This document shows positions 59,170 through 64,000 of a stretch of 64,000 nt of DNA, piece after piece. How positions within the stretch are numbered: position 1 is the first letter of the stretch; every line of letters begins with the position of its first letter. The stretch is from Suillus spraguei (lineage: Eukaryota > Basidiomycota > Agaricomycetes > Boletales > Suillaceae). Location: NCBI GenBank assembly GCA_016800925.1, contig JABCPU010000200.1, positions 57,893-121,892 of the forward strand. The letters are read 5' to 3'. The notes beneath the pieces were generated by a model. It saw only the letters and a list, made by a program, of their open reading frames with translations. It was not told the DNA's origin and made no database searches. Position numbers and translations under genes: made by a program.

Positions 59170-59640
59170 CTGAGGTGTAACTCAAGGAGGTAGATCAGAC
59201 GTCTGGTATCGATGATACGAGTGGGTTAATAGTTGACGTCGTGGCTTTATGCAGGAGTGCATCAGGAACAGCTTGGCTCAGGGCAGCAAAGGGACGATCG
59301 CTCAAAGCAGGAGGATTTTGCTTGAGAAAATAGCCGTAACACGAAGACACTCGTTGTCCAATCTCAAACCTGTCGCCGAGTTGGGCATACCTCCAACTTA
59401 GGTGCTCTACCTATATCTCCCCGTGGACGAACGCGGCTGCTCGGAGAACTTCCTCTTTCACCTGTTTAAGGCGTTGATTGTCGAGTGTAATAGCGAGCAC
59501 GGACGCAAACGCTTCATGGAGGAGTTGTTGGACGAGATTGAGCAGTGCGAGAGTCATTGTATAGTGACCAAAGATGCGCTCTGCGGCGAAACTTGACACA
59601 TGACTAGGGTCAAAAAGCACGCTAGTTGAACGGATATAGA
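59170..59640 (-). pseudogene. Unidentified gene fragment(s)
   Basis: Minus-strand stretches with protein-like composition: HVSSFAAERIFGHYTMTLAL, LHEAFASVLAITLDNQRLKQ and, further on, RYAQLGDRFEIGQRVSSCYG, ALSQAVPDALLHKATTSTIN. They share strand and style with the captured fragments just upstream but I cannot name their source. Confidence 0.35.
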
Positions 59641-59764
59641 GTCATACACGCAGTGAGTATTTTGACAGGGACAACAGTGCTAATAGGACGCCCATCGCAG
59701 ATGTGATCAGCATCACATGAATCCGCTTGAGCGACTCTGGTGATCAGAAGTAAGATCCATGATT

Positions 59765-59885
59765 TTCAGCTCCGAAAGTTGTTGAAAATGCTGAACGGCG
59801 CCAGGTTATCTACGCCCTAGTCGCTGACCATGGACACTAATGCAATAGGGCGAGGCACGATACTTGAAATGAAGAGCTTGTAGAT
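59765..59885 (-). pseudogene. Flavin-reductase-like (FMN-binding split barrel) fragment
   Basis: Reading down from 59,870: SSIVPRPIALVSMVSD, an in-frame TAG (59,817-59,819), then GVDNLAPFSIFNNF. The pair 'PRPIALVSTVS..G..NLAPFS.F' is the hallmark start of flavin-reductase-like split-barrel proteins. Only about 33 codons remain and the stop kills the frame. It abuts the SEC23 fragment. Confidence 0.6.
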
Positions 59886-59889
59886 ATGT

Positions 59890-60615
59890 CCTAGGTGTGA
59901 TGGAGTTGATTCGCCAGGCTGATGTTTGACCCATACCGATTTCCGTCTCGCCAACGCAGGCGGATTTCTTCCCAATGGAGATTGCATGTCCGATAAGGCC
60001 AGAAACCTTCAGTTCTTTAGCTGTCTAAATAAATTCAAGTCAAAAAGTTGTGTAGAGTATGCGAGGCGACTTGCCTGTACGTCGAACGTCGCATTAAAAC
60101 CCATCTGCAAGATGTCCTGGTCGTCCTTATTGAACATGCGCAGGAAGCTTTGCTTGAGAATCGACGTGGCAAACGAATCAAATAGGACGATGACGCCGTT
60201 CGTCGAGTTGGGTAATGACTTCATCTCCAGCAAGCCCACTTGATCCAAGCAGCCAGCAAATAGATCGACAGCGTGACCATTATTCGCCGGACATTCATAG
60301 AACTAAAACAGAGAGAACTATGATGCTATCGAACATTGTTTCACTAATCTAGGACAAACCTTTAATGCACGTTTGTAGTGCTTGACGCTGTCCCGTTCGA
60401 TGTCGTGATGAGAGCGGATAGGTTCCTTGAGTTCGCTACTGACAACCATGCTTGGACCCTCCGTTGCAGGTCCGCCCGCGAAAACCATGATACGTGAGCC
60501 CGTGTTAAGGAAAGTCGTCTGAGAGATATGTTGTCACGCGTAACTCTTCTCACCACAATTGCTATACACACCTCCAGGGGTCCAATGGCTAGATAAGTCG
60601 ACCGCTCGACCAGCC
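59890..60615 (-). pseudogene. SEC23: SEC23 (COPII coat) internal fragment
   Basis: Exons at about 60,572-60,610 (RSTYLAIGPLE), 60,360-60,518 (TTFLNTGSRIMVFAGGPATE and EPIRSHHDIERDSVKHYKRA), 60,075-60,302 (FYECPANNGHAVDLFAGCLD, QVGLLEMKSLPNSTNGVIVL, QSFLRMFNKDDQDILQMGF) and 59,890-60,024 (TAKELKVSGLIGHAIS, CVGETEIGMGQTSAWRINS). These are the middle of Sec23, the GTPase-activating coat subunit of COPII vesicles, roughly the von Willebrand-like/trunk part. No N- or C-terminal exons exist nearby. Introns are retained, one with a GC donor (60,025-60,074), so the fragment was copied as DNA. It abuts the HisRS fragment on one side and the flavin-reductase fragment on the other. Confidence 0.85.
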
Positions 60616-61803
60616 TTGATATGTAGGTGTTTGCTTGATCCAACTAATCAGTTCGTCCCGCCGCACCTTCATACCTTGATCTGCCGACTGAACTTTTGTC
60701 TTCTTCCCATCTACGAATTCCCACTTTTGCTCTTTAACAGTCACCAAACCTTCCTTGAGCTCATAACCGCCCAAAATCACAGCAAAAGGAACTTCATCCT
60801 TTTCACCAGCCATGAACTGCGCAGTGAGCTTCAGTTTCCTCTTTGCGAGGAAGTCAGTCTGAAAAAAAAGAGTTAATACATGAATTGGAAAACGACAATT
60901 TGACTAACCTTTATGCCTGCTTCCCTGAGTTCCTGCACGAGTGCAATCCGCTCTTCCAACAAGCCATCACCAGCAGCCAACACGTATACCATGGTCTCTT
61001 TACTCCGCATCCTCTTCTCGACCCACTTTGGCCACACAATTGCAAAGATACGGTCAAGACCAATACTGACCCCAATACACGGGAGCCCTGGTGCCTTCTT
61101 CCCTTCAGCAGCGGCAGCGGCAGTGAACATACCAACCATCGTACCGGCCACCAGCAGCAATGGACCCGACACCAACCTGCGATTCATCCACTCCATCCTC
61201 TTCGTTATTATCAGCTTTGGCTTTTTTCGAGGGTTTCGGTTTTGGGGGGGGGCTGGGGCTGGGGACTCTGTTGCATTTGCGGAAAGAGCTGGTGGTGCTG
61301 ATGCTTCGACGATCGCTTCATAGATGATGCCTGTATAATAGTCTAGACCACGGGCGAGAGACATATCGAACGAGATCTATGCATACATTAATATATATCA
61401 TGTTCTAATTCACGGAAAGCGAGCTTACTTTGTCGAGCACTTTATATGCTCATAGGAGAGTAAAGAGAATATCCATGTCTGAAATGCCCTGCTTCGCGCT
61501 CGGGTTTGCCATGAGAGTGGCATCCGCTTTCAAAAGATCGAGTAGCGACGGACCACCTGTATAACAAATGAGATGAGATACTTGGCTTTGCATAAAATCA
61601 AGGCTGCCTACCTTTGTGCTTGACATACTCTCCAATCTTATCAGCGACATCTGGAGAAAGGCCTTTCTCTTCCGTCATTTCTTTCTTTACTTCTAGCCAG
61701 AGAAGCTGCACGCAATTAGAACCAGCATCGAAAATGCATCTCTATCGACCAACCTTGTCCAACTTGTCTACAGCAGAGGATATTGATCGAATCTTGTCCT
61801 GTG
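60590..61803 (-). pseudogene. HTS1: Histidyl-tRNA synthetase fragment with disabling lesions
   Basis: Begins in mid-gene at DKIRSISSAVDKLDK (about 61,800). Exons LLWLEVKKEMTEEKGLSPDV, GPSLLDLLKADATLMANPS, ISFDMSLARGLDYYTGIIYE (HisRS motif), VGMFTAAAAAEGKKAPGLPC, VSIGLDRIFAIVWPKWVEKR (motif 3 region) and the anticodon-binding end (EKDEVPFAVILGGYELKEGL, DQGMKVRRDELISWIKQTPT) follow. Lesions: an in-frame TGA at 61,450-61,452 inside the LFTLL-KAYKVLDK segment; a frame change at the nine-G run 61,244-61,252; and a 5-bp loss near 61,137-61,142 where the GGRYDNLVGMF motif should read through. The N-terminal half is missing. A working copy must exist elsewhere. Confidence 0.88.
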
Positions 61804-62534: not shown

Positions 62535-62639
62535 AGAAAAAATCCCACTCTGCCACATAAAAGTGTGTATTATGGTGGGTGCAGCAATAGTGCAACAAGG
62601 ACTACATGCGCTAGTGACGAGTACAGAGCATTACGACGT

Positions 62640-62800
62640 GTGCGAGTAGTAGCCATAGTATGGACCGGGCGCTGCTTGTAATTCTCGTTTGCTAAACACA
62701 AAGTCAACGCGTGGAACGAGGAAGCAGTCTATAGCCTGAATGTTGTGTTTGCGAAACGCGTCGATTATGTACCGTAGATAAGACCAGGTATGTAAGGTGC
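62640..62800 (-). pseudogene. Unidentified protein-like fragment
   Basis: Minus strand reads SYLRYIIDAFRKHNIQAIDC and VPRVDFVFSKRELQAAPGPY, then GYYSHTS and a stop. Composition is protein-like; family not recognised. Listed because it lies in the fragment-rich region. Confidence 0.3.
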
Positions 62801-63001
62801 AAAGTAGCTTTGCGTATATTTACATCTGTTTTAGCAGATTTCAGAATGTCCAGTTTTCACTGGGGTTCATGCACATGACTGAAGCGCATCTTGAAACCTA
62901 TGAATGAAAGGGTAAGTCACAATAGGCTGCTGAGTGATACAAGGCAAGCAAATGGATACTGACAAATGAATCGATGTGATGGAATCACTGTGACTGCAGG
63001 A

Positions 63002-63388
63002 TCACAGATAAGCGAGGGAAAGGAAATATCCATCCCCAGAGTCGCTGCCACCAAAAGAGACGGCATATCCGTAGTGGAAGACAAATGGTGCAAGGGCCCT
63101 GGTAAGTCGGAATGCCAGCAGTGGCCTCGGTATGCACACCAAACTTAACATGGCCTCCACCCCACCCCACAATGTGCGTATGGTTGCGGTAAATATGGGG
63201 GAAGGGGTGGGGATGGAACTCATGTGCAGGGTGTATTGATAAACAACGATGGTGTCGCCAACACCAAGTTGCTCAGACGGAGAACTCGGTCTACAGTAGC
63301 CGTTGAACACCCACGTGTCTGAGTCAGAGTCAGCGCTGAAGGAGGGGTTGATAACAAGTGAAGCGGCTACCGATGTGACAAATGGCAT
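63002..63388 (-). CDS. Uncharacterised ORF, possibly a fragment
   Basis: A 128-codon ORF (MPFVTSVAASLVINPSFSAD, DTWVFNGYCRPSSPSEQLGV, VVYQYTLHMSSIPTPSPIFT) with no recognised domain. It may be another captured fragment or chance. Confidence 0.25.
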   Translation of the reverse strand: MPFVTSVAASLVINPSFSADSDSDTWVFNGYCRPSSPSEQLGVGDTIVVYQYTLHMSSIPTPSPIFTATIRTLWGGVEAMLSLVCIPRPLLAFRLTRALAPFVFHYGYAVSFGGSDSGDGYFLSLAYL

Positions 63389-63430
63389 ATTATAGGCCAG
63401 GAGGAATGATACTGGGGTTCACAGTACTAT

Positions 63431-64000
63431 ATGATAGTCCAGAAGATTGCCGTCTGGTCCGTTTTGTCCAAAGACGCACTGGGATTTGCCCTGGAGGAAA
63501 CAACGTTTAAGCAGTTTAAGAGACCGGACTTGAAACTCCTTGCATGGTCAGCTAATCATCGGCTTAATGCTGAACTGTATGCTACGCTGCTCGGACACTT
63601 AGCAAATGTTCGGTGAGCATGGCGTCGTTACTGTACCATTATCCAAACTAATTATCCGCCAGCTTTGTGAGTGTCACGGATCGGTTTTCTTTGCGAGCTC
63701 GAGCCTGTAACGAAGGGTCAAGTGGCGAAAGACCTCGATACGAAGTACAAGCATCTAGTGAAAGGGCTCTGTCACGTTCAACTGAGAGTGAGATCCTGTC
63801 CTCTGTATTTTTGTGTTCATGTATCAGCTAGGTATGGCCGCCAGAGGCATTTGAGGAGGGAGCCGAGTTTTCTGGAATTATTAGCCAAGTCTTTCGCAAA
63901 TGCGCATGGTCTTCGGTTCAAGATCGCTTTTGCCGATACGTTGACTCGTCTCTTGCACCCATTGGAAAGGTATTTCCTATTTGCTGGCTGGTACTGGTAC
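63431..64000 (+). pseudogene. Furry/TAO3 (PAG1) cell-morphogenesis gene fragment, runs off the window
   Basis: SKDALGFALEETTFKQFKRP, LKLLAWSANHRLNAELYATL, LGHLANV, VSVTDRFLCELEPVTKGQV, DLDTKYKHLVKGLCHVQLR and WPPEAFEEGAEF match the N-terminal armadillo-like region of Furry/Tao3/Mor2 scaffold proteins of the NDR-kinase (RAM/MOR) polarity network. The family's preceding ~150-200 residues are not found upstream, so the 5' end is missing. At 63,868-63,871 an extra T shifts the frame; the conserved LELLAKSFANAHGLRFKIAF continues one base out. It may be a pseudogene fragment or a gene with an assembly error. It continues beyond 64,000. Confidence 0.75.

Follow-up and report, generated by a model that had tools for sequence, protein, structure and literature searches.

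Gene fragments at the end of contig C371

The window, that is, the whole stretch of 64,000 nucleotides of Suillus spraguei DNA analysed here, comes from the + strand of contig C371 (genome 86.2 Mb, 1,256 contigs) and ends in a mosaic of gene fragments. The region is one copy of a repeat that has been amplified in this genome rather than a chimera that occurs once. A reading made from the sequence alone had described abutting fragments of EPT1, HisRS, SEC23 and a flavin reductase, with a TAO3 fragment alongside; these identities were confirmed and the boundaries proved right within some 15 bases, but the series goes on past the flavin-reductase piece into a Nup188-like fragment. The right edge of the window is the end of C371, and the right side of the repeat copy is therefore missing. 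The following features were delimited (strand given where assigned):

59065–59711, minus strand: Nup188-like gene fragment with internal deletions, by similarity to L032 (contig C405)
59744–59886, minus strand: flavin-reductase-like fragment with an in-frame stop (phmmer to 3bpk, E=5.6e-6)
59886–60591, minus strand: SEC23 fragment (C488:77706-79184, 95%; Sec23_trunk 7e-13)
60586–61804, minus strand: HisRS 3' half, introns kept (C691:238531-239750, 96%; HGTP_anticodon 3e-5)
61807–62540, minus strand: 5' part of EPT1/CPT1 (C691:244814-245547, 96%; cholinephosphotransferase 1, E=6e-5)
62541–63444: piece without assigned source, common to copies; 63444 is also where the partial matches at C489, C853 and C991 stop
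63445–64000, plus strand: N-terminal part of TAO3/Furry, truncated where the contig stops (MOR2-PAG1_N, 1.4e-10 and 2.1e-11)
59886–62735: core common to all 20 fetched copies, from the alignment of copies

The HisRS piece also matches cytoplasmic HisRS structures at 7e-20, with tRNA-synt_His at 0.027, under its cut-off, and its parent match overlaps that of SEC23 by 6 nt on the window (60586–60591). Pfam searches gave no match for the EPT1/CPT1 and flavin-reductase-like pieces. For the phmmer comparison with 3bpk, an X was placed at the single in-frame stop of the latter; its left limit is approximate, and the 28 nt at 59716–59743 still resemble L032. L032 has a 917-aa open frame with Nup188_N-subdom_III at 3e-24, a domain that the window piece itself reaches at only 0.0087. 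The two share 94.5% identity over 59065–59210 and 89% over 59203–59711, and the best 40 matches listed for this piece include four further places at 77–83%. The start of TAO3 (~63445) is the same in the copies and in six relatives at 91–93%.

Copies of the core and absence of coding constraint

A search with window 60000–62000 returned 27 full-length matches, one of which is the window; they are dispersed over 26 contigs and have both the EPT1|HisRS and HisRS|SEC23 junctions. The same search gave 13 partial matches, two of them the likely parents (best 40 of 87 candidates). About 10 kb was read around each of 20 copies out of the remaining 26 full-length matches, making 21 sequences with the window. 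The core (59886 to ~62735) was found in 20/20 fetched copies, with a pairwise identity of 97.8–100% and a mean of 99.0% over the 21 sequences; this recurrence identifies an amplified repeat rather than a one-off. The core holds 377 departing cells, of which 300 are transitions, 75 of these at CpG. As a separate observation, C326 carries two inverted mosaic copies (L009 and L010, at 31.0–37.2 kb and 56.3–62.5 kb) that are 99.94% identical over 6.2 kb.

The core junctions EPT1|HisRS and HisRS|SEC23 are real, and the 27 full-length matches rule out a unique chimera or a misassembly for the core. By contrast, none of the 20 fetched copies shares the junction of SEC23 with the flavin-reductase piece at 59886: all of them align rightwards from window 59882–59889 and none aligns further left. 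Beyond this position, the other copies continue with more SEC23, which mostly gives way to gene pieces of amidase-like and other kinds. Right of the core, 8/20 copies have a 65-bp match to window 57498–57556. Misassembly or a chimeric contig would fit the private junction and the position of the window copy at a contig end, and high-copy repeats at 99% are prone to misjoins, which makes once-seen combinations doubtful; as an explanation of the region it is highly improbable, given the two inner junctions in 27 full-length matches on 26 contigs. Junctions observed once, including that at 59886, possibly arose from assembly error.

The gene pieces are pseudogenes without coding constraint. Across the 21 copies, codon positions 1, 2 and 3 show 27/372, 18/371 and 14/369 changes per site, compared to 108/1842 for noncoding sites; the codon positions were counted in four exon stretches that we delimited on the consensus. 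Coding positions are thus as variable as noncoding ones, with no third-position excess in these stretches. Frame-breaking indels interrupt them in 10/21 copies, window included, and in 11 there are none.

Source genes, modules and breakpoints

The alignments to the likely parents are single stretches of nearly equal length that run through introns. As the sequence-only reading had held, the pieces were copied as DNA, and the retained introns rule out a processed, RNA-mediated copy. The HisRS piece has 1,219 nt against 1,220 nt in C691:238531-239750, and the EPT1 piece 734 nt against 734 nt in C691:244814-245547, each at 96%. Both likely parents thus share contig C691, in the same order and strand as in the window, with 5,063 bp between them. 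The HisRS 5' half (C691:240009-240353; PF13393 positions 1–114, stop-free) lies between both source stretches, and the 5,063-bp stretch absent from the copies probably also includes the EPT1 3' part. Because the likely parents adjoin, the apparent EPT1-HisRS fusion is best read as one 5,063-bp deletion that would have occurred inside a single captured segment of ~7 kb. Two separate captures were rejected on account of the neighbouring parents.

For SEC23, the likely parent is C488:77706-79184 at 95%, a source stretch that reaches rel -760 in L012 (rel coordinates are counted from window 59886 in window orientation). The piece starting at 60591 matches C488:77706-78309 over 592/604 nt, in agreement with a 12-bp gap in the window copy. 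C900:6308-7308 also matches SEC23 at 95% and could be a second source or an old copy. Capture of SEC23 from a source separate from C691, namely C488, holds. The proposed joining of unrelated genes thus stands for SEC23 and is not supported for EPT1-HisRS; adjacent likely parents in the same order, which would speak against such joining, were found in this same genome for the latter pair. In the module searches, a parent was found for none of the TAO3, XRN1, amidase-like, Cys-rich and LR modules. The copies are closer to each other (99%) than to the parents (95–96%), indicating that capture is older than spread.

Outside C691, the HisRS 5' half matches 12 other places, 11 of them above cut-off and each with one internal TAG. 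Five of the 12 lie at most 1 kb from SEC23 or amidase matches (C550, C517, C357, C385 and C1024). We infer that these 12 places are derivatives lacking the other half.

The flanks of the core bring in further genes. To the left, L012 has more SEC23 (Sec23_BS 8e-19, helical 4e-8) and a Cys-rich ("EGF") module with growth-factor-receptor and furin-like matches under cut-off; L009 has an amidase-like piece (4e-4, under cut-off), and part of a forkhead gene is present in L013 (2.5e-10) and L028. To the right of TAO3 follows either XRN1 (XRN_M 5e-12 in L018; XRN1_D2_D3 3e-39 in L022) or block LR. Seven source genes (SEC23, HisRS, EPT1, TAO3, amidase-like, Cys-rich and XRN1) each occur in tens of places. 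The module searches, joined into clusters of matches at most 12 kb apart, gave at least 94 clusters, of which 38 contain the core and 38 a single module kind; the latter may include parental genes. The clusters were built from the best 40 of 87, 93, 113, 55 and 92 candidates and all 35 in one search. The four rows that belong to the parents on C691 and C488 were left out, as were ten short rows (32 bp in seven cases, 96 bp in two and 53 bp in one) and three incomplete matches to the Cys-rich module (321–536 bp); in two cases a pair of split rows was joined. Among the 56/94 multi-module clusters, 38 are single-strand in the order EGF - amidase/SEC23 - HisRS/EPT1 - TAO3 - LR - XRN1, an order that is partly by construction, as neighbouring module queries overlap.

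The copies diverge on the left at rel -334, -651, -736, -754, -878, -1890, -2600 and more, and on the right at rel 2933, 3571, 3599 and 4348. The cores of L013 and L014 differ by 0 substitutions and 4 gap cells, yet their left sides are different. Such divergent breakpoints point to internal deletion plus flank exchange as their probable origin. Several breaks carry a ~275-bp repeat, 98–100% alike, in both orientations and by eye resembling a miniature inverted-repeat transposable element:

L010 rel -3726 to -3449: ~275-bp repeat
L015 and L024 rel -2197 to -1924 and rel -607 to -334: ~275-bp repeat

Other sequences accompany individual copies. In L018, an element bounded by inverted repeats of 239 bp that are 98% identical occupies rel -3217 to -1753 and -1544 to -932; it was set aside as carrier, since it abuts different mosaic parts in different copies. 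L024 has a 2.2-kb insertion in TAO3 (rel 3681–5849) whose ends overlap by 11 bp; it is hAT-like by eye and had no match in a Pfam search. A 67-bp minisatellite of differing extent between copies lies left of the amidase piece in L021 (rel -3550 to -2490). From rel 3599 of L011 onwards, the mosaic is joined to a GMP synthase piece (2.6e-48), which may be a captured fragment or a host gene.

The window also has other sequences left of the mosaic. A 5' piece of a Bud6/Aip3 gene on the plus strand (58280–58836; Aip3p_Bud6_N 1.3e-32), with the Nup188 piece next at 59065, may be a captured fragment or a truncated native gene. No second DNA copy of 57911–59064 was seen among the best 40 matches listed. 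The block at 56044–57910 has counterparts of ~93% identity at C385 and C562 that lack ~300 bp internally, and part of it (57000–57556 or 57354–57557) lies ~1.5–2 kb ahead of XRN1 modules on other contigs. Within this block, 57191–57577 is a ~390-bp high-copy unit that forms inverted pairs spanning 3.6–8.4 kb on C290, C843, C294 and C499, which look like long terminal inverted repeats.

Candidate carriers and comparison with known systems

On balance, the region is probably a pseudogenic, rearranged copy of a composite repeat of host segments, non-autonomous and recently amplified; the mobile element that would have spread it is tentatively of Helitron type. The repeat nature, the likely parents, the retained introns, the partly conserved order and the absent coding constraint are observed; the identity of the mover is an inference. 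A mobile element would have acquired multi-kb host chunks from C691 (HisRS and EPT1) and C488 (SEC23), in addition to chunks of the amidase-like gene, the Cys-rich protein, TAO3 and XRN1, and spread to many genomic sites. Copies would then have lost internal stretches, whence the EPT1|HisRS junction among others, and acquired or swapped flanks, which would account for the private flavin-reductase/Nup188 side of the window copy. Helitron-type rolling-circle transposition, for which the many Rep-bearing elements of the genome would provide Rep in trans, is our tentative first choice of mover, because maize Helitrons form multigene mosaics that gain pieces step by step and lose internal parts, and because Rep sources abound. 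Another DNA transposon is a somewhat unlikely mover.

A Rep-bearing source for a Helitron is present in the genome. The search was made with the Rep domain, and Helitron_like_N gave at least 154 matches, many in long open frames (best 150 of 196 candidates, exon pieces counted apart). No Rep was recognised by eye among the frames of at least 140 aa around the copies, and the repeat is thus non-autonomous at best.

Several observations weigh against this explanation. Among the rows listed, Rep lies within 10 kb of 1/94 clusters (C598, 5.2 kb) and 14.6 kb from another (C301), with no excess over a rough density expectation of about 2–3 clusters, and 12 Rep loci (L033–L044, 3.6 kb each) have no DNA in common with the copies. 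Helitron1 end motifs are not enriched at the 53 distinct breakpoints between copies, where complete ends were not reached: CTRR occurs within 3 bp at 7/53, where 9% per site would be expected, and A|TC at 2/53, against an expected 12%. This result says only that the tested breaks are not Helitron1 ends. In the ~10 kb around each copy no common element end was recognised, and 18/56 multi-module clusters do not follow the common arrangement (8 with mixed strands, 10 with another order; LR precedes SEC23 at C357 and C598). Groupings by left side, right side and core conflict, and descent of one fixed-end element therefore fails to explain the set. Moreover, the available portions of fungal studies argue that Helitron-type transduplication would be unusual here.

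Some of these features would suit dispersed segmental duplication, in which ectopic recombination or template switching between repeats multiplies the pieces with no dedicated element. Clusters of other order or mixed strands (18/56), different left sides on the near-identical cores of L013 and L014, the 6-nt overlap at SEC23/HisRS and palindromic module pairs at C385 and C618 are consistent with it; the last are Cys-rich pairs without spacer (C385:105.8–112.2 kb; C618:44.5–46.7 kb). Nevertheless, dozens of dispersed copies at 97.8–100% with the same internal junctions suggest replication as a unit, and we regard this origin as improbable.

Internal-deletion derivatives are typical of cut-and-paste DNA transposons, and a carrier of this kind (KDZ, hAT or another DDE type) that captured and amplified the gene pieces was also considered. 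Besides the Helitron Rep, KDZ and MULE transposases were searched. KDZ domains are very abundant, with at least 167 matches in the genome (best 150 of 493 candidates), but the rows listed lie within 5 kb of only 3/94 clusters (C525, C532 and C515), about the chance level of 2–3 expected from density. A weak Tet_JBP match (6.5e-6, under cut-off) adjoins copy L018, alongside its inverted-repeat element. In the available portion of one report, Tet_JBP genes ride Kyakuja and Zisupton in Agaricomycetes, and other transposons including Helitrons too (PMC12730594), and hAT transduplication in fungi is published, as seen in parts of two papers (PMC6710886, PMC3538342). The MULE domain PF10551 has 0 matches in the genome (6 candidates scored), and no terminal inverted repeat (TIR) was recognised around the core in the copies, with TIRs farther out possible. 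A cut-and-paste carrier is unlikely, and Pack-MULE is disfavoured because the genome has no MULE-domain match. Of the Helitron or Pack-TYPE capture first suggested, the Helitron part has a Rep source in the genome, and its end motifs are not enriched at the breakpoints between copies. It is also decidedly improbable that the mosaic represents a modular, still-recombining platform, in which host segments would serve as interchangeable cassettes, amplified and rejoined by a carrier outside the described fungal gene-capturing elements.

A mosaic of at least seven cellular genes in tens of copies, with three likely parents present, would let capture, loss and recombination be dated stepwise. Such loci are also an annotation hazard, as they give false fusion genes and inflated family counts.

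The comparisons below refer to the available portions of the cited papers. Similar to Pack-TYPE and Pack-MULE elements (PMC8903248), host DNA is amplified here inside a repeat, but no TIR was recognised around the core and MULE-domain matches are absent. In ascomycetes, hAT transposons amplified histone H3 to tens or hundreds of copies (PMC6710886, PMC3538342); a housekeeping gene is multiplied in both cases, whereas hAT carries one gene and the present repeat is a multigene mosaic, and the carrier is a DNA transposon there and only a candidate here. Maize Helitrons, in which gene pieces are shuffled on a large scale, likewise hold many host gene fragments per multicopy unit, with stepwise capture and internal loss (PMC3288121). 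Compared to them, the present repeat has no established ends, hairpin or A|T insertion, its mosaic has both orientations (TAO3 and XRN1 plus, the rest minus), and its host is a fungus. The genomes of Pleurotus ostreatus (PMC4289320) and Fusarium oxysporum (PMC5148889) resemble this one in their many Helitron replication domains. However, little shuffling of gene pieces is described for their Helitrons, which captured few host genes, whereas here seven source genes each occur in tens of places.

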